Shown piece by piece: positions 21,547 through 36,115 of a stretch of DNA of 41,131 nucleotides. Every line of letters begins with the position of its first letter. The stretch's first letter is position 1. Source of the DNA: a virus; IMG/VR virus record IMGVR_UViG_3300049215_000044, positions 1-41,131 of that record, one strand, 5' to 3'. The notes beneath the pieces were generated by a model that saw only the letters and a program-made list of their open reading frames with translations, did no database searches and was not told the origin of the DNA. A program made the translations under genes and the position numbers.

Positions 21547-22902
21547 CTACATTTTAATAAACGCTTCAAAATTGTAATTTGACTCTGTGTGCATTAAGAA
21601 AGCACCGCTAAGAGCATCCACTATGTCATCGTGCGCTGCCTCTGGGAAGTTCTCTAGCTCTCTAAAGAAGTCTTCATTCCAAGGAGCTCGCAGCACTCTA
21701 ATGTTTCCTGCTTCGGCTTGGGCACTCACTGGTGAGGCTCTAGTTACCTTATCCTTAGTCGCTCTATAGGCTTTGACATTAAAACCCGAAAGCATTCTAA
21801 TGAGTAGGTCAACTTCCGATACGCCTGCCTGACCTGGGTCTTGCTCAATTCCAACTTTACATAAAGTCCCATCTTGTGAAGCAGTATTTTTAATTGCATT
21901 CTGCACGTGTAATGGGCTTTCTTGCAATCTAACAACATCGCAAATGTAAAATACTCCTTGACTGTCTTTGGCTAACTTTAATCCAACTGTATAGTCTGGA
22001 TCGTTGTTCTCCGTCTTCTTAGTCGCGGCTCTATCCCAATATCTAACAAAAGTCAGGTTCCTCGGCAATACATCAATAACATAGAAAAAAGATCTTTGAA
22101 AGAACATCCCAGCTGAGGGTCTTACATTCCAATTCCCCATGAGAAGCTGCTCGCGCTCGTAGCGAGACAGAGCCTTCAAAGAAGCCAAATAGGAAGGATC
22201 TCTTTCAAGTAATATCTTATTATCGAAAATAGTTGAAGCAACAAAACTAAAACTTTTAGGCAATCTAGTTGGGTCTTTTGAAACTAACTCTTCTTTACTA
22301 GCTGCCCAAATTACTTTATCGCTTTCAACTACAAACCATCGGACTACGCCTGATCTTTCTTGAATGGCATAGCCAGTATGCTCATCAATCCACCAGCCAA
22401 TCATATGCCTAACCCATGAATCTGGGTCTGGGTTTGTAGTCGCTCGAATATAAGAGGGTACGCCCGATACGCTACGGTTTCGGCTGAACATGTACATGAA
22501 TTGTTGCCAAGAGAAGTGAGTCAGCTCGTCGAAGCCGATCAAAGGAATTTGACTACCCTGCCAATTAAATCGATCATTATCATGCTCCATATGAGCGAAT
22601 TGCACCTTGGCGCCAGAGGGAAATCTCCATTCAAGACTTGACTGCCTCGGATATCCTCCAGCGAGAGGGTATATTGTGAGAGAGGTGTCCCAAAGTCCAC
22701 CTGGATTCCTGACCTGCGTAGAATTTCGTCGAAAAATAACGGCAGAGAATCCACTCTTCTCGACCCATCGTAGACACTCAAGAAGTAACGCGAAAGTCTT
22801 TCCGCCTCCTGCTGCACCGCCGTAGATGACGATGTTAGCACTATTCCTGAGAAAGTCTTCCTGTGGTCCTGCCTGTGGTCGTAGTTCAAATTCATCACTC
22901 AT
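21547..22902 (-). CDS. terL: Terminase large subunit
   Basis: This 451-residue protein is the packaging motor and nuclease. The ATPase has Walker A GGAAGGGKT at 28-36 and Walker B IGFDE at 123-127, followed by the TTNPDP coupling motif at 156-161. The nuclease domain shows RYWDRA with D291, IEQDPGQAG with E354, and HDDIVDAL with D427 and D430. All key residues appear intact. The start at 22902 has AGGTGAG upstream and overlaps the small subunit stop by 8 bases. It lies between the small subunit and the portal. Confidence 0.95.
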   Translation of the reverse strand: MSDEFELRPQAGPQEDFLRNSANIVIYGGAAGGGKTFALLLECLRWVEKSGFSAVIFRRNSTQVRNPGGLWDTSLTIYPLAGGYPRQSSLEWRFPSGAKVQFAHMEHDNDRFNWQGSQIPLIGFDELTHFSWQQFMYMFSRNRSVSGVPSYIRATTNPDPDSWVRHMIGWWIDEHTGYAIQERSGVVRWFVVESDKVIWAASKEELVSKDPTRLPKSFSFVASTIFDNKILLERDPSYLASLKALSRYEREQLLMGNWNVRPSAGMFFQRSFFYVIDVLPRNLTFVRYWDRAATKKTENNDPDYTVGLKLAKDSQGVFYICDVVRLQESPLHVQNAIKNTASQDGTLCKVGIEQDPGQAGVSEVDLLIRMLSGFNVKAYRATKDKVTRASPVSAQAEAGNIRVLRAPWNEDFFRELENFPEAAHDDIVDALSGAFLMHTESNYNFEAFIKM

Positions 22903-23413
22903 CCGCCTCACCTTCGCATTTCATTCCGTTATCAGGCAGATAGATCTTCACTCCTGATTGCACTTGCACATTCTGTTCTAGTACGGCCGTCTCCTTCCAT
23001 CCAAGTCGTGTCTTGGCCAGAAATATAAGAGCGGATAAATTGGGTTTGACTGGAGGTGCAATAACCTCATTCGTGTCTGGATGGATAACTGCGTCTTTGC
23101 CGATTGCAATATTGTAGAGCCTCTGTGCGATCGTATTTTTTGCAGTTGCCCTTCCGCTAAGTAGCTCTTCGGGAAAGTATTTTGTGAGAGTTTTATTATC
23201 CATCCCCAAGATTGCAGCGATATCTTCGTTGGTAGCACCGTATGCAGCATATGAGTAGACGATTGTCGCATCTTTATCGGTCTTTTCATATTGCTTAGCG
23301 ATGTGCTTCTTAGGTGGCTTATAGTCATTCCGCTTGATTGCTTCCTTCGGATCCACCAATTCTTTTGAACTCTCGCTCTTTTTTGACTTTGCGGATTCGC
23401 TTGACTTCTTCAT
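22895..23413 (-). CDS. terS: Terminase small subunit
   Basis: This 172-residue protein has a lysine/serine-rich N-terminus and a helix-turn-helix at about 50-85 (AAYGATNEDIAAILGMDNKT), followed by a helical oligomerisation part. The place directly before the large subunit and the HTH mark it as the DNA-recognising packaging subunit. The ATG at 23413 has GTGAG about 9 bases upstream and lies 89 bases inside the preceding TET-like gene, so the two genes overlap in different frames. If phage DNA is hypermodified, this protein must recognise modified DNA. Confidence 0.85.
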   Translation of the reverse strand: MKKSSESAKSKKSESSKELVDPKEAIKRNDYKPPKKHIAKQYEKTDKDATIVYSYAAYGATNEDIAAILGMDNKTLTKYFPEELLSGRATAKNTIAQRLYNIAIGKDAVIHPDTNEVIAPPVKPNLSALIFLAKTRLGWKETAVLEQNVQVQSGVKIYLPDNGMKCEGEADE

Positions 23414-24161
23414 TGATGTTCTCACAGTTCCACATTTGTTCAAGGGAATAATAGACTACAGAGTATCTGTAGCAGTCATCGCCTTCGGGTTTAATAATAG
23501 GGGTAACGCCGTGCAGGATTTGTGCGCCGTCGAAGATCACAACGTGATTGTCATCACACTTGAATTTCAGATCGAATTCAGGGCAGGCTAGGTGTCCCCC
23601 AGCTACTCCCCGTTTTAGCACAATCATATTGGACAGTACATTCTTAAAATTCCCAGCGTCATGGTGATACTTCAATGGATTGTTCTTATTGACGATTCCA
23701 GAAGTAAATGGAGTCCCTGGAAGCTTCCACTCATCTTTTACTTTTAAATTACAATGTTGGTAGTGGCGTTCCAGGGTTTCCGAAAAGTGGGTTTGGTATA
23801 TTTTTATTAACTCCTGTGCAAACCCACAAATCACATGGTGCTGCTTGGGGAAATTCCTCGACATAGCAGTGGCGGAGCAAAAGTCTTTACGCATGGTGAC
23901 TCGTGGAGAGAAGCCAAAGATTGCGCTACGAGTTTTAAGACCATTCGTTCTTGTCGTCTCCTCATAGTCAATAGTCTTCACAGCCCATCTCAAAGCCTGT
24001 GTAAGATTGGCTTCCATCTTGCAATAAAGAATTCGTGGACTACCATTCACGGTAACAAGGCAGTCGTAGTCCACTAGCTGAGAGCAATCGTCCTCTACAG
24101 CTGATCGCATCTTGAATTGCTTAAAATCAACCTTCTTTGGTTGGATCTCCAGAATCTTCAT
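23325..24161 (-). CDS. TET/JBP-like 2-oxoglutarate/Fe(II) dioxygenase, predicted DNA base oxidase
   Basis: This 278-residue protein has the full set of residues expected of a 2-oxoglutarate/Fe(II) oxygenase. The HxD pair is H166 and D168 in LKYHHDAGN, the distal histidine is H217 in ILHGVTP, and the 2-oxoglutarate-binding arginine is R232 in YRYSVVYYS. Features pointing to the TET/JBP branch are FGFSPR at 82-87, the N after HxD, GVAGGHLACPEF at 185-196, and VVIFDGAQILHG. Phage TET/JBP enzymes oxidise 5-methylcytosine in DNA, often followed by glycosylation. The neighbours here, two ParB-like proteins, a TAGT-like glycosyltransferase and terminase, are those described for phage TET genes. A different 2OG-oxygenase substrate cannot be excluded. 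Confidence 0.78.
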   Translation of the reverse strand: MKILEIQPKKVDFKQFKMRSAVEDDCSQLVDYDCLVTVNGSPRILYCKMEANLTQALRWAVKTIDYEETTRTNGLKTRSAIFGFSPRVTMRKDFCSATAMSRNFPKQHHVICGFAQELIKIYQTHFSETLERHYQHCNLKVKDEWKLPGTPFTSGIVNKNNPLKYHHDAGNFKNVLSNMIVLKRGVAGGHLACPEFDLKFKCDDNHVVIFDGAQILHGVTPIIKPEGDDCYRYSVVYYSLEQMWNCENINEEVKRIRKVKKEREFKRIGGSEGSNQAE

Positions 24162-24378
24162 CTTCCTCGTCCTCTGAATTTATTAAGGTGTTAAGCATAT
24201 CGCCCATCTCGCAATAAATACGACCTCTCAGTATCTTTGAGAGCATTTCTAGTTCTTCAGTATTATGATCAATATTATCTAAAGTAGCATCTAGATCATT
24301 CAAATTATCTATCGCTTCGGAGAGATGTACAATACAAGGCTCCTCTGCCATTAAAACATCAACTATTTCCCTTCCCAT
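24127..24378 (-). CDS. Small acidic protein of unknown function
   Basis: This 83-residue protein is strongly acidic, especially the end (SEDEEDEDSGDPTKEG), with a helical middle that may form a coiled coil. GGGGGAG lies just upstream of the ATG. It overlaps the preceding stop by one base and the TET-like start by 35 bases. Unknown function; the acidity could mean DNA mimicry, but this is only a guess. Confidence 0.65.
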   Translation of the reverse strand: MGREIVDVLMAEEPCIVHLSEAIDNLNDLDATLDNIDHNTEELEMLSKILRGRIYCEMGDMLNTLINSEDEEDEDSGDPTKEG

Positions 24379-24605
24379 TACTCCCCCAAAATAGGTAAAT
24401 CATTCAGCAATTTTTGCAGATTATCTGCACATTTTTGAAAACGTTTATGGTCTTGCATGAGAATTAAATGCCTGATCTCAACGATCATGTCATTTACTTG
24501 CCATAACTGGTGTCGCCAATCGTTAAAGGCTCGGCGTTCCGCTTTTGTGATTGCCAGATTCATCTTGTGAATCGCATCTCTGAATTTCTTCTCGTTCAGT
24601 TTCAC
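24378..24605 (-). CDS. Small basic helical protein
   Basis: This 75-residue protein is nearly all helix, rich in K, R, H and W (RRAFNDWRHQLWQVNDMIVE), and ends LLNDLPILGE. It starts with GTG, supported by GGGAG 5 bases upstream. Its first 83 bases overlap the end of the upstream gene in another frame. The family is not recognised. Confidence 0.65.
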   Translation of the reverse strand: MKLNEKKFRDAIHKMNLAITKAERRAFNDWRHQLWQVNDMIVEIRHLILMQDHKRFQKCADNLQKLLNDLPILGE

Positions 24606-24813
24606 TTAGCTCCCTCCATCCAACTACTTTTAGCTTTATTTTATCCAATTGGAAAAGGGGAATGTCTAGCAGCCACGCCCATCCAAAATTCGGATTAGGA
24701 TCGTAGGTTGCCTTGCACTCAGTCCCACCTTCAATTCGGACTACATACAACTGGCCCTTTATCGGCTTCGGTATCTTTTTTCCATCGGTAGACTGGTTCC
24801 AGTTTTCTTCCAT
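24523..24813 (-). CDS. Small protein, DUF551-like fold possible
   Basis: This 96-residue protein has a beta-rich core, GQLYVVRIEGGTECKATYD then FGWAWLLDIPLF, with a charged C-terminal tail translated over the next gene. AAGGAG lies 7 bases before the ATG. The W..LD.P pattern recalls small DUF551-type proteins, but this is weak. It overlaps the upstream gene by 83 bases and the downstream gene by 83 bases. Confidence 0.6.
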   Translation of the reverse strand: MEENWNQSTDGKKIPKPIKGQLYVVRIEGGTECKATYDPNPNFGWAWLLDIPLFQLDKIKLKVVGWRELSETEREEIQRCDSQDESGNHKSGTPSL

Positions 24814-25243
24814 GCATCTTCTCCTTTTCTATCGCGTAGAATTCAAAGAAGTATTTAGCTACCAGCTTCTTTAAATCGTTTCCATAATAGGAAACGGCAG
24901 CACATTTATCTACGTGTATAGGCTTGTTTGACCTAAACAATCTCTCGTATATGACCATGAATTCAGTTACCATAACAAGACCTCGCATTGGGCTTCCTTG
25001 CATAGTAAACACCGTGCCAGCGTAGCCGTATTCCCCATCAAAGTTGACTTGGTATAACCCTCGGCCTCTATGATCTTCGCAAGCTGCCTTTGATCCATGA
25101 CCTCCCTGTCTTAATGACAGATATGGTCCTCCGAGAGGGTGATTGATATAAATGCAGGAAATAATATCGTTGATGTTTTCAAGGCTGACACCATCCTCAC
25201 ATTTCCTTCTCACATACTCTACAACACCTTTCTCGTACTTCAT
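24731..25243 (-). CDS. Unknown protein in the hypermodification block
   Basis: This 170-residue protein is a mixed alpha/beta protein that I do not recognise. Visible features are a YEKGVVEYVRRKC N-terminal helix, GGPYLSLRQGGHGSKAACED with Gly and His residues (about 38-57), a YGYAGTVFTMQGSPMRGLVM segment and a basic helical C-terminus. The GGGHG-like stretch might be a nucleotide or metal site. It starts right at the stop of the coiled-coil protein and has a GGAG site. Its place between the glycosyltransferase and TET-like genes makes it a candidate accessory factor of the same pathway. Confidence 0.65.
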   Translation of the reverse strand: MKYEKGVVEYVRRKCEDGVSLENINDIISCIYINHPLGGPYLSLRQGGHGSKAACEDHRGRGLYQVNFDGEYGYAGTVFTMQGSPMRGLVMVTEFMVIYERLFRSNKPIHVDKCAAVSYYGNDLKKLVAKYFFEFYAIEKEKMHGRKLEPVYRWKKDTEADKGPVVCSPN

Positions 25244-25518
25244 TAATCTCCACTCACTTGGTGATTGATTCCTTGAAGCTTGGACACGATAGCCTCTTCC
25301 ATTCCTGTCATTCTTTCTTGAAGTCCAAGGATTCTTGAGTCCATCATATTTAGGATTTTGTGAAGCTTGTCGGAGTTCTCAGCGATATGACTCAGTTTCT
25401 CCACGATCTTATCCATGTAGAAAAGCTCCATTGAGGTAGCATATGGCGTTGTACAGCCCTCTTCATGAAGTTTAATGAAGATTTGGCTTGCGTGTACTTT
25501 GTCTTCTGGTGTCATCAT
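25243..25518 (-). CDS. Small coiled-coil protein
   Basis: This 91-residue protein begins MMTPEDKVHASQIFIKLHEE and continues as long helices with heptads (YMDKIVEKLSHIAENSDKLH; LQERMTGMEEAIVSKLQ). The ATG at 25518 overlaps the glycosyltransferase stop by 4 bases and has GGAG 9 bases upstream; an earlier TTG is less likely. It may be an oligomerising partner of a neighbour. Confidence 0.65.
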   Translation of the reverse strand: MMTPEDKVHASQIFIKLHEEGCTTPYATSMELFYMDKIVEKLSHIAENSDKLHKILNMMDSRILGLQERMTGMEEAIVSKLQGINHQVSGD

Positions 25519-26246
25519 TTTATTTTGCTCCAATTTATTTTAACGTCTATTCTTCCATCTTTTTGAAGAGGCTCGACCAGCTTCGGCCACTTCCGGCAAA
25601 GCTTCCAAGTCTCGTGCATCTCAGTCTCAGCGTTGTACCAGCCACTCATTCCGCCAGCTTGGCTCTTCATGTCCGCAATGCCATAGTAATATTTACCGCT
25701 CTTGAGCGTCCCCTTATCTTTGAAGATAGCTTGAAAGCTGATGTCATAGTCCTCTCTGATTTTAAGGCGAAGGTCATAGTCGATATTTTGGCAATGTTGC
25801 AGATCGAACATGACACACTGCATGGCGATTTTGTCGCGCTGTACTTCCTTACTAGACCACGCAAATTGGCGTAGCTCAAGAGAATACATACTCGCTGGTC
25901 CATAAGACTGCAATTGGGTATAGGCTTTAAGTAGTACTCTCGCATCTGTTTGAGTAGTTTTTCCATCTTCCGCTTCTCCAAAACATTCAATATCGTCGTC
26001 CAGCATCCAGAATCGTTCGTATTTCATCTTCCGCATCTGACGCAAAATCCAATGGCGCGAGTAGGTAATTCCCTGATCGTTTTCAGGTAAAACCATGATC
26101 TGATGACCTGCATCGGCATAAAGAGCTTGCTCTTGGGGTTCGACGACAAAGCAGTAATGTAAACCTGCTTTACATAGTAATTTATCCGTCTTCGTCTTCC
26201 CTGCTCTCCCCTTCGATGGAATCATTATCGGCGTTTTCGAGTCCAT
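25515..26246 (-). CDS. TET-associated-type glycosyltransferase (TAGT-like)
   Basis: This 243-residue protein has a GT-A-like N-terminal fold: MIPSKGRAGKTKTDKLL at 8-24, the sugar-nucleotide strand HYCFVVEPQEQ, LPENDQGITYSRHWIL at 53-68, and WMLDDDIECF at 80-89 with an aspartate triad for metal binding. A C-terminal acidic motif REDYDISFQ follows. The VEPQE, LPEND and DDDI signatures match my recollection of the TET-associated glycosyltransferases predicted to put sugar on oxidised cytosine in phage DNA. GAGG lies 6 bases before the ATG. It starts 65 bases inside the ParB-like gene. Confidence 0.75.
   Translation of the reverse strand: MDSKTPIMIPSKGRAGKTKTDKLLCKAGLHYCFVVEPQEQALYADAGHQIMVLPENDQGITYSRHWILRQMRKMKYERFWMLDDDIECFGEAEDGKTTQTDARVLLKAYTQLQSYGPASMYSLELRQFAWSSKEVQRDKIAMQCVMFDLQHCQNIDYDLRLKIREDYDISFQAIFKDKGTLKSGKYYYGIADMKSQAGGMSGWYNAETEMHETWKLCRKWPKLVEPLQKDGRIDVKINWSKIK
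26158..26174. repeat. 17-bp near-palindrome, copy 3
   Basis: TGTAAACCTGCTTTACA lies inside the glycosyltransferase gene, within its N-terminal coding region. It differs by two bases from the perfect copy at 11297. Being intragenic weakens a terminator role and leaves a DNA-binding site possible. Confidence 0.45.
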
Positions 26247-26898
26247 GACTTACCTCGTAATAGTTGATCAGATGCATCAGTACTTCACTGTTGTCATTAA
26301 GATCAAGTTTCTTGGATATTTCATCCATAGTCTTTATAGTGTCTTCATATACATCTGAGGGCAATTGGAATACGATTTGCTTTATCGTATTGTCATTAAA
26401 ATTCTTCTTGGACTCTTCCAGCTCATCATCATCAATATCAGGCTCAACGGCATCATCATCTCCCATTACTGGGGGAGGTTTAATAGATGGGTCGGCCTCT
26501 GGAGCTTTCCTTTCCAATAACTCAATCTCGGCTCCATATTTCAGAAGCTCATCGGGGGTGTATTGCTTGCGTAAGAGCTCAACATCCCATTTACCAAAGT
26601 CGATGTTGTCTCGGAGAATGAAGCGTCTAGCTTGCTCATCCTGAATCTGGTCAGCCCAAATGACCCATACGGATTCCATTCCAGCAGCACAGCAGGCACG
26701 ATAACGCATGTTACCGCCCAGAATGATACCGTCTTTATTTACCACGATTGGACGGAGTTTAAGCATCCACGGTGCGTCTTTTACAGACTGGACTAGCTGC
26801 TCAAATTTCTGAGGAGTGATGGTTCTAGGGTTTGCAGGATTCTCGCAAATGCTAGAAACATTCTCCTTGACTATCTTGTAGACTGGTTCAATTGCCAT
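26182..26898 (-). CDS. ParB-like protein A of the hypermodification block
   Basis: This 238-residue protein has an N-terminal ParB/sulfiredoxin-like domain: NPANPRTITPQKFEQLVQSV at 20-39 and ILGGNMRYRAC at 59-69, the GxxRxxA signature. An acidic linker follows (about 145-160) and then a C-terminal domain with IKQIVFQLPSDVYEDTIKTM. That domain is shared with the adjacent ParB-like protein. Unlike plasmid ParB, there is no ParA partner or parS-type array nearby. Phage TET/JBP neighbourhoods are known to carry such ParB domains, whose job (nuclease, nucleotide-binding or targeting) is unsettled. Confidence 0.8.
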   Translation of the reverse strand: MAIEPVYKIVKENVSSICENPANPRTITPQKFEQLVQSVKDAPWMLKLRPIVVNKDGIILGGNMRYRACCAAGMESVWVIWADQIQDEQARRFILRDNIDFGKWDVELLRKQYTPDELLKYGAEIELLERKAPEADPSIKPPPVMGDDDAVEPDIDDDELEESKKNFNDNTIKQIVFQLPSDVYEDTIKTMDEISKKLDLNDNSEVLMHLINYYEVSHGLENADNDSIEGESREDEDG

Positions 26899-27547
26899 AA
26901 TTCCTCTTCCAATAGCTAATCAGGTTGAGCAGCACTTCTGGGTTTTCTTGGCATTCCATATGGGTTTTAATCCCATTCATAGCCTGAATAACTTTCTCGT
27001 AGAAATCGGCTGGGAAGTACACCACGATCTGTTTTATCTTATTGTTATCGTAGGCATCCTTCCTCTTGTCTAAGTCCGACTCATCAATCTCAGGTTGAAT
27101 ATCGCCTATGACTTCCATTCTTGGCGTTGAGACTTCCACTAGTTTCATCCCCACTTCCACCATCTCTCGATCTTGGTAGTGTTGTGAAAGCATCGGTTTA
27201 TCCCAATCTCCGAAAGAAAGGTTGTCTTTAACAATGAATTCCTTCAATTGCTTTTCGCTTAGATCGTCTGCCTTGACTACATGAACTTCCTTCACTCCTG
27301 CCACTTGGCAAGCCTTTAGACGTTGGTTTCCGCCTTGAACTACCATATCCTTATCTACAACCAAAAAACGAATGGATAGCATGAAACCGTCCTTCTTGAT
27401 CGAAGAAACAAGATTCATGAAATCCTCGTCTGTGATGACTCTAGGATTGGTTGGGTTGGGCTTCACTTGGGAGATCGGCACGAGGCATATCGGGTATGCT
27501 TCCTCCTTCTGCGATTCCTGCGTCAACGACTTCTTCTTTTTTGCCAT
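26888..27547 (-). CDS. ParB-like protein B of the hypermodification block
   Basis: This 219-residue protein is a diverged tandem relative of the next gene. The ParB domain shows VPISQVKPNPTNPRVITDED at 23-42 and VVQGGNQRLKAC at 69-80. The C-terminal domain has IKQIVVYFPADFYEKVIQAM and a final NLISYW, aligned with the same elements in protein A. The two differ enough to suggest a heterodimer or divided functions. Its stop overlaps protein A by 11 bases, and its start lies 107 bases inside the upstream gene. Confidence 0.8.
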   Translation of the reverse strand: MAKKKKSLTQESQKEEAYPICLVPISQVKPNPTNPRVITDEDFMNLVSSIKKDGFMLSIRFLVVDKDMVVQGGNQRLKACQVAGVKEVHVVKADDLSEKQLKEFIVKDNLSFGDWDKPMLSQHYQDREMVEVGMKLVEVSTPRMEVIGDIQPEIDESDLDKRKDAYDNNKIKQIVVYFPADFYEKVIQAMNGIKTHMECQENPEVLLNLISYWKRNYGN

Positions 27548-27890
27548 CTTTCAAACTCTCTTGGTATTGTTTAGCTTGCATCAAATTGTAGTTCTTAGTC
27601 GTTCTAATCATATCATGAGACAGTTTCTCAAAACTCTTCGGACTCAATTGAACGCAAAAGACAGCCTGCTCGCCTTCCATAAACTTAATCTGGAAGTATC
27701 CCTCATCAGCATCCCAATGGATTTGAATACTCATTGGATGACTCTCATCGGTCTTTTTATCAAGCACTTCGCTTTGGTAGTGCTCCATGCACATTGGGTT
27801 CTCACCAGCTTTTATGCCAGTTCCGTTGCAGATACAGCATAGAGCTTTTTCCAGCTCCGCTCCTTCTAATGACTTTGTTTCTTCGCTCAT
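27441..27890 (-). CDS. Protein with a Cys motif, unknown function
   Basis: This 149-residue protein carries a zinc-knuckle-like stretch LCCICNGTGIKAGENPMCMEH (about residues 17-37; Cys 18, 19, 21, 34 and a His). A beta-rich middle follows (IQIHWDADEGYFQIKFMEGE) and then a helix. The last 36 residues are translated across the start of the ParB-like gene in another frame and look less structured. AAGGAG lies 7 bases before the ATG. Confidence 0.65.
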   Translation of the reverse strand: MSEETKSLEGAELEKALCCICNGTGIKAGENPMCMEHYQSEVLDKKTDESHPMSIQIHWDADEGYFQIKFMEGEQAVFCVQLSPKSFEKLSHDMIRTTKNYNLMQAKQYQESLKDGKKEEVVDAGIAEGGSIPDMPRADLPSEAQPNQS

Positions 27891-28313: not shown

Positions 28314-28670
28314 TTAAGCCTTGGTTACTATTTTAATTTCGACAGGGTAGAGATCTTCTACGATTTTTCGCTTGGCGATTGACATAGCCGTGTCTCGCCC
28401 TTTAGTATCGATAAACTCAACAGTACCATCAGCCAAAAACACCTGAAAATCACATACATACTTAACGCCACCGCCAATGTCAAACGGCACTTGGCACAGA
28501 AAGAAAACCACTTCTCCGCTCGCTTGCCGAATTTTAAGCGTATCGTAATATCGACGTTCGAGTCTTGAAGGGAATTTTTTCTGGTCGCGCTCACAGCTCA
28601 TCGCTCCGAATTTATGTTTGGTGACTTTGCGCTTACGCAAGGCGTTCACATCATCAAGGCTTATTGGCAT
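28314..28670 (-). CDS. DUF1064-like PD-(D/E)XK nuclease
   Basis: This 118-residue protein matches the DUF1064 group of small phage nucleases. Landmarks are KKFPSRLERRYYDTL at 31-45 with E38, a Q-containing strand FLCQVPFDI, YVCDFQVF with D74, and FIDTKGRDT with D88 and K90, together forming a PD-(D/E)XK-type site. Such proteins are thought to act as Holliday junction resolvase-like enzymes in replication or packaging. It has an AGGTGAT site and lies near the start of the long minus-strand run, consistent with early expression. Confidence 0.75.
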   Translation of the reverse strand: MPISLDDVNALRKRKVTKHKFGAMSCERDQKKFPSRLERRYYDTLKIRQASGEVVFFLCQVPFDIGGGVKYVCDFQVFLADGTVEFIDTKGRDTAMSIAKRKIVEDLYPVEIKIVTKA

Positions 28671-29308: not shown

Positions 29309-30091
29309 ATGTCAAATTTTCTAAGTGAAGTCCAGTTAATGAAGAACGCTCCAAGCGTTTTCGCAACTGGTGGGTCGCAACATGTGAGTTCAAAATACGG
29401 ATTCATCCCTACGATCGAAGTTGTACGAGGATTGCGTTCATCTGGTTTTCACCCAGTGATGGCAAGCCAGTCAAGAACACGGATTGATGGCCGTGAAAGT
29501 TTCGTTAAACACGTCATGCGCTTCCGTCATGAGACTGCCGTTGAGAAAGGTGGCGTTCTACCTGAGATTGTTTTGGTCAACAGCCATGACGGAACTACGA
29601 GCTACCAATTAAGAGCTGGCGTCTACCGCCTTGTTTGCAGCAATGGAATGATCGTAGGTGACGAGATGTTCTGCCGTAGAGTCAAACATCAGGGTGACGT
29701 GGTAGAGCGAGTTGTTGAGGCTGCAAATGACCTTATCGAGATTGTTCCGATCAGCGTCGAGAAAGCAAAAGAATGGCAGAGCATCGAATTGAACCCAGCT
29801 CAAAAGGTTGTATTCGCTCAGACTGCGCTAGGCTTGAAATGGGACGGCGAGGAGACGTTAATTACACCTAACCAAGCCTTGGAGCCACGCCGTTCAGCTG
29901 ACTCAAAGAATGACCTCTGGACAACGTTTAACGTCCTTCAGGAAAATATCATCCGTGGTGGCGTGAGATACAGAACTGAGGCAGGCTCAAGAATGAGAAC
30001 TAGACCAGTGAATTCTGTCGGCGAAAATGTTAGACTAAACACCGCCTTATGGACGCTAACTGAAAAGATGGCTGAATTGGCAGGAAGATAA
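29309..30091 (+). CDS. DUF932 domain protein
   Basis: This 260-residue protein matches the DUF932 family found on phages and plasmids. Landmarks are SKYGFIPTIEVVRGLRSSGF at about 28-47, the strand series VKHVMRFRH, IVLVNSHDGTTSYQLRAGVY at 91-110 and RLVCSNGMIVGD at 111-122. The biochemical role of DUF932 is not settled. It is followed not by another gene but by a 176-base gap with several hairpins, which is unusual in this compact genome. Confidence 0.8.
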   Translation: MSNFLSEVQLMKNAPSVFATGGSQHVSSKYGFIPTIEVVRGLRSSGFHPVMASQSRTRIDGRESFVKHVMRFRHETAVEKGGVLPEIVLVNSHDGTTSYQLRAGVYRLVCSNGMIVGDEMFCRRVKHQGDVVERVVEAANDLIEIVPISVEKAKEWQSIELNPAQKVVFAQTALGLKWDGEETLITPNQALEPRRSADSKNDLWTTFNVLQENIIRGGVRYRTEAGSRMRTRPVNSVGENVRLNTALWTLTEKMAELAGR

Positions 30092-33215: not shown

Positions 33216-33484
33216 TTCTTACCCCTTACGCCGTAGCGATCGTATTTTGATTCTTTTCTTCTTTGTTGGTTATACGATTGTCCGCTTTCGCTTGCAGCTA
33301 TAGCCTCAGCCTGTTTTGGGCTGTTGACTTGTTGACCGTTAGACGACTTCAGCTTGCCAGTTCCGTACTCCGACATCACTTTCTTGAATTTCGGTGTAGC
33401 AATCAAGTCTTTTCTTTTTTCGTTCATGCTCATACCGCTACAGGAATTCATTCCCTTACATGAGTTCATCGCATTACACGCCAT
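33212..33484 (-). CDS. DUF6496-like small protein with Cys-rich start
   Basis: This 90-residue protein has a repetitive N-terminus (CNAMNSCKGMNSCSGMSMNE). A DUF6496-like core follows: TPKFKKVMSEYGTGKLKSSN and VNSPKQAEAIAASE, about 30-67. The three cysteines are spaced like a short C..S repeat. The C-terminus is basic. GGAG lies upstream. DUF6496 proteins are small and of unknown role; their lysine and arginine content suggests nucleic-acid binding. Confidence 0.7.
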   Translation of the reverse strand: MACNAMNSCKGMNSCSGMSMNEKRKDLIATPKFKKVMSEYGTGKLKSSNGQQVNSPKQAEAIAASESGQSYNQQRRKESKYDRYGVRGKK

Positions 33485-34169
33485 CTTTCTTCTCCTCCAT
33501 TTCGCCGTCTGGTTTTTGAGTTAAAGCCTGAAGCAAAAACCCACAACGGCCAGCATGGTTAAATTTGATTAATGGGTCTACCCATATATCTAAGCCAGCT
33601 TCTCTAGCTCTTCGGCAGAATGTGTAGTCCTCACCCCAGAATTCGCCTTCCCATACGCCAGCTTCAAAGAAGCAATAGCCATCGGCGTGCTTCAATTGAT
33701 CGTTCTTTGGTTGGAAGTAAAGCTCAGGAAATTTAGTCTTCATCTTTTCGAGGGCTGAACGCTGCATTAGCATGAAGCCTGCTGGAATGTATTCCATTTT
33801 CAGGAGATGACCCTCTGTTTGGATCGAGCCATTTTCATTTAAGAACGGCCTGAACGTGAAGGAATTCTCTCCCCTAGAAGGATAGACACCTGCGACAATT
33901 TCCTTGCCTGCGAGCAGCATTTTAACTACTTGGCTTGATTCCCACCCAAGATCGCTATCGACGCAAAGAATGTGAGTGCAATCCGAATCCATGAAAGCCT
34001 TTAGAATCCTGTTCCTTTCGGCTATCAGCAATGAGCCTGATGTGGTCAGATTATAACACACAGAAACGCTGTTATTTAATAAGAGATTGGTTGTTTCAGA
34101 AAGCGACAATGCGAAAGGGACGTGTACTGTTCCGCTATAGCAAGGGCTTGCTATCATTACTTTATGCAT
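33474..34169 (-). CDS. GT-A-type glycosyltransferase in the tail-fibre operon
   Basis: This 231-residue protein has GT-A features: an N-terminal KVMIASPCYSG, LLIAERNRILKAFMDSDCTH at 47-66, ILCVDSDLGW with the metal-binding D-S-D at 71-73, IVAGVYPSRG, IPAGFMLMQRSALEKM, and GEDYTFCRRAREAGLDIW near 188-205. Such phage enzymes may glycosylate DNA bases, virion proteins or the host surface. Its place between the fibre gene and small basic proteins suggests virion or surface sugars, but it could also serve the base-modification pathway at 23-27 kb. Confidence 0.78.
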   Translation of the reverse strand: MHKVMIASPCYSGTVHVPFALSLSETTNLLLNNSVSVCYNLTTSGSLLIAERNRILKAFMDSDCTHILCVDSDLGWESSQVVKMLLAGKEIVAGVYPSRGENSFTFRPFLNENGSIQTEGHLLKMEYIPAGFMLMQRSALEKMKTKFPELYFQPKNDQLKHADGYCFFEAGVWEGEFWGEDYTFCRRAREAGLDIWVDPLIKFNHAGRCGFLLQALTQKPDGEMEEKKDGV

Positions 34170-34171
34170 GG

Positions 34172-36115
34172 TTAAGCTGCCTTTATGTAAAGTGATCTAT
34201 TGAAATTTAAAGGTGGTTCTACTGTGATTGCCGCTCCTGCATCTGTTGGGAGCTGGAACTGTGTCCCTGTAGCATAAGGATAATTATCGGGAGCATACTG
34301 AATAGCTCCTCCTGCTCCTACTGAAACGACATTACCTGCATGAGCCAGTCCGACAATTGAGGATGTCGAGTTGGTTGTTGCAGCTGTGAAAGTTTGAGCG
34401 TTCGTGGAAGTCCAGATTGCACCTGACTGGGTAGCTGCATAGTAAATACCATTGGTCGCTGTCACGGCAGTTAAGCCTGTCAAACTAAAAATAGTATTTA
34501 GCGTCCAAGTGGTCGCATCGGTTGAGCTTAATGAGGTTCCTATACCTCCCACTGCCAAATAACGGCCTACTCCTGATTCGTAGGTTATGCCTGTATAGTT
34601 CGTTGTTGTACCGCTCACTCTTGATGTGTAGGTCACGCCGTCAGTGGTTGTGAATATGTTTCCTCCTGATCCTGCTAGAGCAAAAATCCCATTTCCAAAT
34701 GTATTTGAGATAAGATTTGCAGTTGTTCCAGAGGTTTGGCTAGTCCAAGTAAAACCATCGGTTGAAGTCGATACTCCCCCTACGTTTCCTGAAGCCAAAT
34801 AGATTGTTCCATTCCATGCTAGAGCTGTGAGCGTCTGAACGGTAATGCCGATATTTCTTGCAGTCCAAGTGATACCATCGGTCGAGGTGGCCATTGCGTT
34901 ATCAGCTAAAGCCCAGAATAAAGATCCGTCCCAAACAAGGCCAGTGATGTTCGCTGATAGGTTGCTCGTTCTGGCATTCCAAGTGGTCGCATCGGTTGAG
35001 GTAGATATTCCTCCTCCGTTCGCTCCAAACATATAAAGACTGTTTGCAAATATCATTGCATTTATCGTGCTAGATGTGCCAGAGGTGCGATTTGTCCAAG
35101 TCGTCGCGTCAGTCGAGCTGGCTATTCTGCCTCCACCTGCTCCGTAGACGTATACTGTACCAAAAGCAAAACTCTGGATAGTGCTAGTGGTATTACTGGT
35201 CTTCGCAGCCCATGTTATAGCGTCAGTTGAAGTTGAAAGTCCTCCCCCAGTGCATCCTAGAAGGTACAAAGAGTTTACATAAGCTAAAGCCGTGATCGTC
35301 GAAGTTGTTCCGCTGGTCTGAGTCGCCCAGACATTACCGTCAGTCGAAGTTTTTAATACACCTCCGACCCCTGCTGCTACGAATTGAGTACCGTAGGCCA
35401 GTGATGCAAATGAAGATGTCGTTCCTCCGCTTTTCCTCGCCCATGTAATAGCGTCAGTCGATGTGGCTATAAATCCTTGGGTAGCTGCGATCATGTAAAG
35501 GCTATTGCCAAATGTGATTGCTGAAGCTCCACTCATTGAATCAAAGAACGCTCCATTCTGTCCGCTCCATTGACTCCCATCAGTTGAAGTGACCAAAACA
35601 TTAGAGCCTGCGATAGCTACGAATTTGGTTGTATGGATCAAGCTATTTGGGTTTAACCCTATGGATGGTAGTCGAGAGTTGAAGGTGATACCATCTGTTG
35701 ATGTGACTACGCAATTTGATGACCCAGTAGCTACGAATTTATCTCCGTAAGTGATACCGAATAGGCCGTTTTGAACTGGTGAATTTGCCCTTGTCCACGT
35801 CTTTGCATTCGTTGAAGTCATTATCAACCCAGAGGCTCCAACGGCAACATAAATTGATCCGTTTCCAGCTACAGCACTCAAGCTTGAAGTTGTATTGGAC
35901 AAAGCGTTAGTAAAGAATTGGCCTGGGGGATTGATTAACCCTACAGCTGCGAAAAGATTGGGATAGGTGGCTTGAGCTAATACTTGACCACTGCATTTCA
36001 GCCAGCCAGCCGACAAGAGAGCTGCGTCTCCTCCTGCATTGGCAAAATACTGAAGCTGTCCAATTGGTGCGCTTGCGCCTGCCAGTTGGTAAGAAGGATT
36101 CTCATTATAAGCCAT
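34172..36115 (-). CDS. Large tail fibre: collar domain split by an Asp-box propeller
   Basis: This 647-residue fibre protein begins with a tail-collar-type element (GWLKCSGQVLAQATYPNLFA at 37-56) and ends with its other half (TGTQFQLPTDAG near 616-627). In ordinary collar proteins these two elements are separated by only a few tens of residues. Here 13-14 repeats of about 39 residues are inserted between them (79-617), each with an STDGITW or STDATTW box like the Asp-box of sialidase-type beta-propellers. It is likely the receptor-binding fibre; propellers commonly bind sugars. AAGGGTGA lies before the ATG. Confidence 0.82.
   Translation of the reverse strand: MAYNENPSYQLAGASAPIGQLQYFANAGGDAALLSAGWLKCSGQVLAQATYPNLFAAVGLINPPGQFFTNALSNTTSSLSAVAGNGSIYVAVGASGLIMTSTNAKTWTRANSPVQNGLFGITYGDKFVATGSSNCVVTSTDGITFNSRLPSIGLNPNSLIHTTKFVAIAGSNVLVTSTDGSQWSGQNGAFFDSMSGASAITFGNSLYMIAATQGFIATSTDAITWARKSGGTTSSFASLAYGTQFVAAGVGGVLKTSTDGNVWATQTSGTTSTITALAYVNSLYLLGCTGGGLSTSTDAITWAAKTSNTTSTIQSFAFGTVYVYGAGGGRIASSTDATTWTNRTSGTSSTINAMIFANSLYMFGANGGGISTSTDATTWNARTSNLSANITGLVWDGSLFWALADNAMATSTDGITWTARNIGITVQTLTALAWNGTIYLASGNVGGVSTSTDGFTWTSQTSGTTANLISNTFGNGIFALAGSGGNIFTTTDGVTYTSRVSGTTTNYTGITYESGVGRYLAVGGIGTSLSSTDATTWTLNTIFSLTGLTAVTATNGIYYAATQSGAIWTSTNAQTFTAATTNSTSSIVGLAHAGNVVSVGAGGAIQYAPDNYPYATGTQFQLPTDAGAAITVEPPLNFNRSLYIKAA
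34265..35881 (-). repeat. 13-14 tandem Asp-box (BNR-like) repeats
   Basis: Each unit is about 39 residues (about 117 bases): a strand pair such as SLYVAVG, then GGGISTSTD, the box STDGxTW, and an SGTTSTITALAY link. Units 4-8 and 10-11 are the most alike, which points to recent unit duplication. Confidence 0.85.

Follow-up and report, generated by a model that had tools for sequence, protein, structure and literature searches.

A phage origin has been proposed for the TET/JBP enzymes. Clusters for cytosine hypermodification, in which a phage TET is combined with a TET-associated glycosyltransferase (TAGT), with or without a C5-cytosine methyltransferase (C5-MTase), were reportedly predicted by Iyer et al. 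in 2013 and described by Burke et al. in 2021, and the phage TETs shown to be active in the latter work are said to act on 5-methylcytosine (5mC). To our knowledge, the only phage TETs shown to be active use 5mC. The locus analysed here lies in a viral record of 41,131 nucleotides (IMG/VR IMGVR_UViG_3300049215_000044), which we refer to as the window, and resembles these clusters in that a TET/JBP dioxygenase adjoins a TET-associated glycosyltransferase and ParB domains. It differs from them in that both the window and its clade lack a C5-MTase, and in that its TET is of type A, whereas most of the C5-MTases found here are in type B (the types are defined below).

The kinetoplastid base J pathway, which consists of JBP1/JBP2 and the J glucosyltransferase (PMC10057400), likewise uses a TET/JBP dioxygenase and a glycosyltransferase and does not need a methyltransferase; however, the 278-aa window TET is a dioxygenase domain only, without the J-DNA-binding domain of JBP1 or the SWI2/SNF2 domain of JBP2. 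Closer in layout are the actinophage blocks of Serendipitous, Rich, Prince, Tonitrus and LittleMunchkin (ParB, TET, either TAGT and PIG-L or an ADDT, P-loop kinase, terminase), which share the TET type, the upstream ParB and the downstream terminase with the window, but P-loop kinase, PIG-L and ADDT are all missing from the window and its TAGT comes from another branch. The TET-TAGT-MTase block of Nonlabens phage P12024L also has adjacent TET and TAGT genes, with a TAGT 33-34% identical to that of the window, but its TET is only ~22% identical and of type B, the next gene is an N6/N4-type MTase, and no ParB homologue was detected. Clusters of TET, TAGT and ParB are a known kind, to which the window adds a new member; its phage group has no match at the DNA level among the searched annotated isolates (the window itself had none in the annotated isolate phage collection).

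Results

A predicted DNA hypermodification block beside the terminase genes

An earlier note on this DNA had proposed a hypermodification block in direct contact with the terminase genes, and all of the genes that it named were found in place. The block is on the minus strand, in the order ParB1, ParB2, TAGT, five small open reading frames (ORFs), TET, a terminase small subunit (TerS)-like gene and the terminase large subunit (TerL), and most of these genes overlap. The features of the block and its upstream neighbours are as follows (L001 and G001 denote one relative, as do L002 and G002):

21547..22911, minus strand: terminase large subunit (Pfam Terminase_6N, 7.9e-26; Terminase_6C, 6.2e-21)
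22895..23443, minus strand: terminase small subunit-like gene, overlapping TET and adjoining TerL; synteny in L001, L002, G035 and G036
23325..24161, minus strand: predicted TET/JBP 2-oxoglutarate/Fe(II) DNA dioxygenase, type A (N171, L240), from Pfam Tet_JBP, invariant residues and fold
24127..25533, minus strand: five small ORFs in a predicted variable cargo slot that separates TAGT from TET; no homologue in relatives
25515..26246, minus strand: predicted TAGT (TET-associated) DNA glycosyltransferase, GT-A fold, DDD motif, from Pfam TAGT, PHROG 842, model and fold search
26182..26898, minus strand: ParB-domain protein 2 (ParB_N 2.3e-6, just over the cut-off); conserved in L001, L002, G035 and G036
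26888..27547, minus strand: ParB-domain protein 1 (ParB_N 2.5e-6, just over the cut-off); conserved
27441..27890, minus strand: small conserved protein upstream of ParB1 (identity 44% in G001, 41% in G002, 34% in G035)
28314..28670, minus strand: DUF1064 protein, a predicted nuclease, upstream neighbour (Pfam DUF1064 1.9e-13; 72-84% identity in 4/4 relatives)

The contact with the terminase genes is as had been described, with TET (23325-24161) overlapping the TerS-like gene (22895-23443) and TerL next. The TerS-like gene shares the strand and the block of TET and TAGT, and is not part of the modification chemistry. The two adjacent ParB-domain proteins, whose genes precede TAGT and TET, both pass the ParB_N (PF02195) cut-off by narrow margins (28.0 and 27.8 bits versus 26.3). 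Together, the TET/JBP, TAGT and ParB genes support the proposed hypermodification block beside the terminase. Just upstream of it, a DUF932 protein (29309-30091) and the DUF1064 predicted nuclease (28314-28670) are kept in all four relatives.

Gene order in four other IMG/VR records (G001, G002, G035 and G036) is collinear with the window and circularly permuted. Since the two ends of the window lie ~2 kb apart in G002, we take the window to be a near-complete genome of ~41-45 kb. The presence of Baseplate_J, DUF3383 and other tail genes (Pfam) indicates a contractile-tailed, myovirus-like phage, and a host in or near Bacteroidota is likely, because the nearest relatives within bacterial genomes are in Siphonobacter and Ignavibacteria. 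None of the four collinear relatives has a counterpart of the tail collar/DUF6242 protein (34172-36115) or of its neighbour (33474-34169), which mark a probable host-range region.

The oxygenase and the glycosyltransferase

The oxygenase at 23325-24161, in which the full HxD, H and R set and a TET/JBP character had been noted, matches Pfam Tet_JBP (PF12851) with E=5.1e-13 (49 bits versus a cut-off of 34.9). The residues H166, D168 and H217, which form the HxD...H Fe(II) triad, and R232, the Arg for 2-oxoglutarate, show no variation in any of three alignments, of 6, 51 and 47 homologues. An AlphaFold2 model of the protein (pLDDT 93.1) best matched the PDB structures CcTet, NgTET1, TET2 and CMD1, with FTO and AlkB proteins ranking behind them, so the protein does not belong to a 2-oxoglutarate enzyme family that acts outside nucleic acids. 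Thus, judged by profile, catalytic residues and predicted fold, this protein is a TET/JBP enzyme. PHROG 6059 and many RefSeq actinophage records name the same family 'queuine tRNA-ribosyltransferase', a label that the profile and fold evidence contradicts.

The transferase at 25515-26246 matches the Pfam TAGT profile (PF20691) with E=8.9e-22 (78.5 bits versus a cut-off of 27.5) and PHROG 842 with 1.1e-29. All three motifs reported earlier (VEPQE, LPEND and DDDI) are present in the window protein; across relatives only the DDD stretch, which is the DxD-type motif (residues 83-85), is invariant or nearly so. Its AlphaFold2 model (pLDDT 93.8) adopts a GT-A fold of the nucleotide-sugar type, for which TarP (UDP-GlcNAc) and collagen galactosyltransferase are the top structural matches. 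In T6-like phages, PF20691 proteins have been described as probably glycosylating DNA (PMC13390438). From profile and model, we assign this protein as a TAGT DNA glycosyltransferase.

In actinophages (L004:2504-3091; L246:6714-7304), a PIG-L (GlcNAc de-N-acetylase) gene lies directly 3' of TAGT, hinting that the TAGT there adds an N-acetyl sugar that is later deacetylated. Two other loci (L116:7415-10353; L131:8361-11496) each have four TAGT-family genes in tandem with no TET detected, which suggests that several sugars are added one after another.

Five small ORFs separate TAGT from TET

The five small proteins encoded between TAGT and TET had been named as candidate components, and their position inside the operon and on its strand would suit extra tailoring enzymes or regulators that give rise to an additional modified base unique to this phage. 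The comparison with relatives contradicts this idea, which we consider highly improbable. The five ORFs (24127-25533) have no homologue in L001/G001, L002/G002, G035 or G036, in which the flanking TET and TAGT are 62-83% identical; none has a profile match above the curated cut-off in Pfam or PHROG, and the largest, of 170 aa, has no match in the viral contig collection. Moreover, the content of the slot varies, with nothing in G035 and a single unrelated small ORF in G001 and G002. With the ORFs ruled out as components by their absence in collinear relatives and by this variation, the TAGT-TET slot is, on sequence comparison, a variable cargo slot that lies outside the system.

Phage TETs fall into two types with different operon partners

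We retrieved ~130 phage TETs, which form two groups with complete support in a tree. Type A, which includes the window TET, has HxDxGN and a Leu at Arg+8, whereas type B, to which the TET of phage P12024L belongs, has HxDxGD and an Arg at Arg+8. In the alignment, TET2 has Asn and His at the two type-defining positions; as to residues of the base pocket, type A shares the Asn at HxD+3 with TET2 but has Leu opposite the TET2 His, which we take to be His1904.

The window clade comprises the window, L001, L002, L006, L086 and L194 (100% SH-aLRT), with a uniform order of ParB(-ParB)-TAGT-TET-TerS-TerL. Several relatives repeat the order ParB-ParB-TAGT-TET-TerS-TerL, and dozens of environmental phages have ParB-TAGT-TET. 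Actinophage TETs nest within type A, and type-A operons without TAGT have an ADDT and a P-loop kinase both in Prince, Tonitrus and LittleMunchkin and in the environmental records L025, L030, L042 and L226; MO526 also has an ADDT. In contrast, ADDT is absent from 28 of the 28 searched records with type-B or type-B-like TETs. According to Lee et al., ADDT (amino acid:DNA transferase) reportedly acts on thymidine derivatives in thymidine hypermodification, and the TET homologue of Prince was annotated as 'thymidine hydroxylase' by its depositors.

In the TAGT phylogeny, the window protein has its place, at moderate support, beside the TAGTs of type-B TETs and not beside those of most type-A operons, and six records of the type-B TETs concerned have a C5-MTase. 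The window is thus a mosaic, with a type-A TET and a TAGT of a branch otherwise found mostly with type-B TETs. Variation of another kind was seen in two related Siphonobacter prophages, in which the slot between ParB and TET is occupied by a P-loop-kinase-like gene without a Pfam match (L228:5505-6023) or by TAGT (L229:5207-6004). In two further type-A operons (L064:7793-10888; L178:3549-7312), a C5-MTase lies beside ParB and no TAGT was detected in the available DNA; the order is ParB-C5MTase-ParB-TET in L064 and ParB-TET-ParB-C5MTase in L178.

C5-MTases are nearly absent from type-A records

The earlier note had seen no DNA methyltransferase in this DNA, and a search for C5-MTases (PF00145), extended to the rest of the genome, likewise found none in the 41-kb window or in the four collinear relatives (G001, G002, G035 and G036). 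We rejected the idea that a C5-MTase was missed because its part of the genome had not been sequenced, since the relatives, as circular permutations of the same genome, jointly cover it and have none. More widely, 50 of 52 non-redundant type-A TET records (1.68 Mb) have no C5-MTase, nor do 11 complete isolate phages with type-A TET matches or P12024L; the search itself works, as 10 of the 14 genomes used as controls gave a C5-MTase and the MTases inside the L064 and L178 operons were picked up. The frequency of C5-MTases in type A (2/52) compared to type B (3/17, plus one record with a truncated TET) is suggestive only (Fisher p ~0.09).

We also looked for other enzymes that might supply or elaborate a modified base. 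No thymidylate-synthase-fold hydroxymethylase (PF00303) was found in 50 records, and pre-replicative supply by an enzyme of this type was therefore rejected. Neither an ADDT nor a P-loop kinase was found in a Pfam scan of 40 window ORFs, and ADDT (PF18724) is absent from G001, G002, G035 and G036. The bacterial genomes with the nearest prophages (Siphonobacter and Ignavibacteria) carry chromosomal C5-MTases, which could be a source of 5mC for the phage.

Discussion

Very probably, the block serves to oxidise the methyl group on one of the DNA bases, after which a sugar is attached. That this base is methylcytosine, as the earlier note had proposed, finds no support in gene content, given that a C5-MTase is missing from the window, its collinear relatives and nearly all other type-A records and that related operons have thymidine-hypermodification enzymes. 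We consider it somewhat more likely that thymine is oxidised directly, in the manner of base J synthesis, than that 5mC is oxidised, and would give an about even chance to the reading that thymine is converted to 5-hydroxymethyluracil and then to a glycosylated, base-J-like nucleotide. Thymine is favoured because the phage and its relatives have no means of their own of supplying 5mC and because related operons place ADDT and a P-loop kinase where TAGT stands in the window. We also counted in its favour the name given by the Prince depositors, the lack of a hydroxymethylase, and the restriction of ADDT to type A among the records searched. Against it we counted the in-operon C5-MTases of L064 and L178, the reported action of the active phage TETs on 5mC, the chromosomal C5-MTases of the prophage-bearing genomes, the lack of an ADDT-type enzyme or kinase in the window and, weakly, the TAGT phylogeny.

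If 5mC is placed on the phage DNA by a C5-MTase of the host or of a co-resident prophage, the same machinery could oxidise it to 5-hydroxymethylcytosine and glycosylate the product, thereby masking host-methylated sites from modification-dependent restriction. The pairing of type-A TETs with C5-MTases in two operons, the clustering of the window TAGT with those of C5-MTase-linked type-B TETs and the C5-MTases of the prophage-bearing genomes keep this a serious rival, to which can be added the use of 5mC by the active phage TETs, as reported by Burke et al. in 2021. The occurrence of PF20691 TAGTs in T6-like phages with glucosylated cytosine (PMC13390438) is also in line with it. However, it requires a host enzyme and would modify host motifs only; type-A phages can bring their own C5-MTase, as those two records do, but the window clade never does, and the thymidine-hypermodification enzymes of related operons again argue against it. 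We regard it as possible but doubtful. Readings other than thymine or host-derived 5mC are, taken jointly, unlikely. Among these, TET might act as an eraser or decoy that oxidises 5mC placed by the host to evade methyl-dependent restriction, with TAGT acting elsewhere, for example on a host surface glycan. Although GT-A folds such as those of TarP and collagen galactosyltransferase use non-DNA acceptors, TAGT and TET adjoin and overlap each other in dozens of loci and the close relatives of this TAGT are phage DNA glycosyltransferases, making such a division of labour very improbable.

Returning to thymine, we suggest that the locus is a post-replicative, thymine-directed DNA-hypermodification operon of a ~41-45 kb contractile-tailed phage, a proposal that, as a whole, we think could go either way. 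From the observed family membership, catalytic residues, fold, operon conservation and absence of a C5-MTase, we infer the activities, the order of the steps, the base, the addition of a sugar, the part played by ParB and the benefit to the phage. Specifically, TET would hydroxylate the 5-methyl group of a pyrimidine in replicated phage DNA, and TAGT would then transfer a sugar onto the new hydroxyl. The enzymes are probably loaded on DNA, or targeted to it, with the help of the two ParB-domain proteins. Timing may be tied to packaging through the block shared with the terminase, as the overlap of TET and the TerS-like gene suggests co-expression with packaging. The product would likely protect phage DNA from host nucleases.

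More tentatively, and with slightly less assurance than an even chance, we propose that the window TET and most type-A phage TETs, a widespread branch of phage TET/JBP enzymes, are hydroxylases of thymine and not of methylcytosine, which would make 5-hydroxymethyluracil directly in DNA, to be followed either by TAGT glycosylation to a base-J-like nucleotide or by a kinase and an amino acid:DNA transferase, as a phage counterpart of base J synthesis.

The interesting part of this system is which base is modified, since this operon family is almost always without the methyltransferase needed for 5mC and, in related phages, is associated with enzymes that modify thymidine. If the base is thymine, these phages would offer a clear parallel to base J, and gene content would give a simple rule for predicting which phage TETs use thymine. 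Cultivated actinophages share the TET type of the window, and thus the question of the base is testable now.
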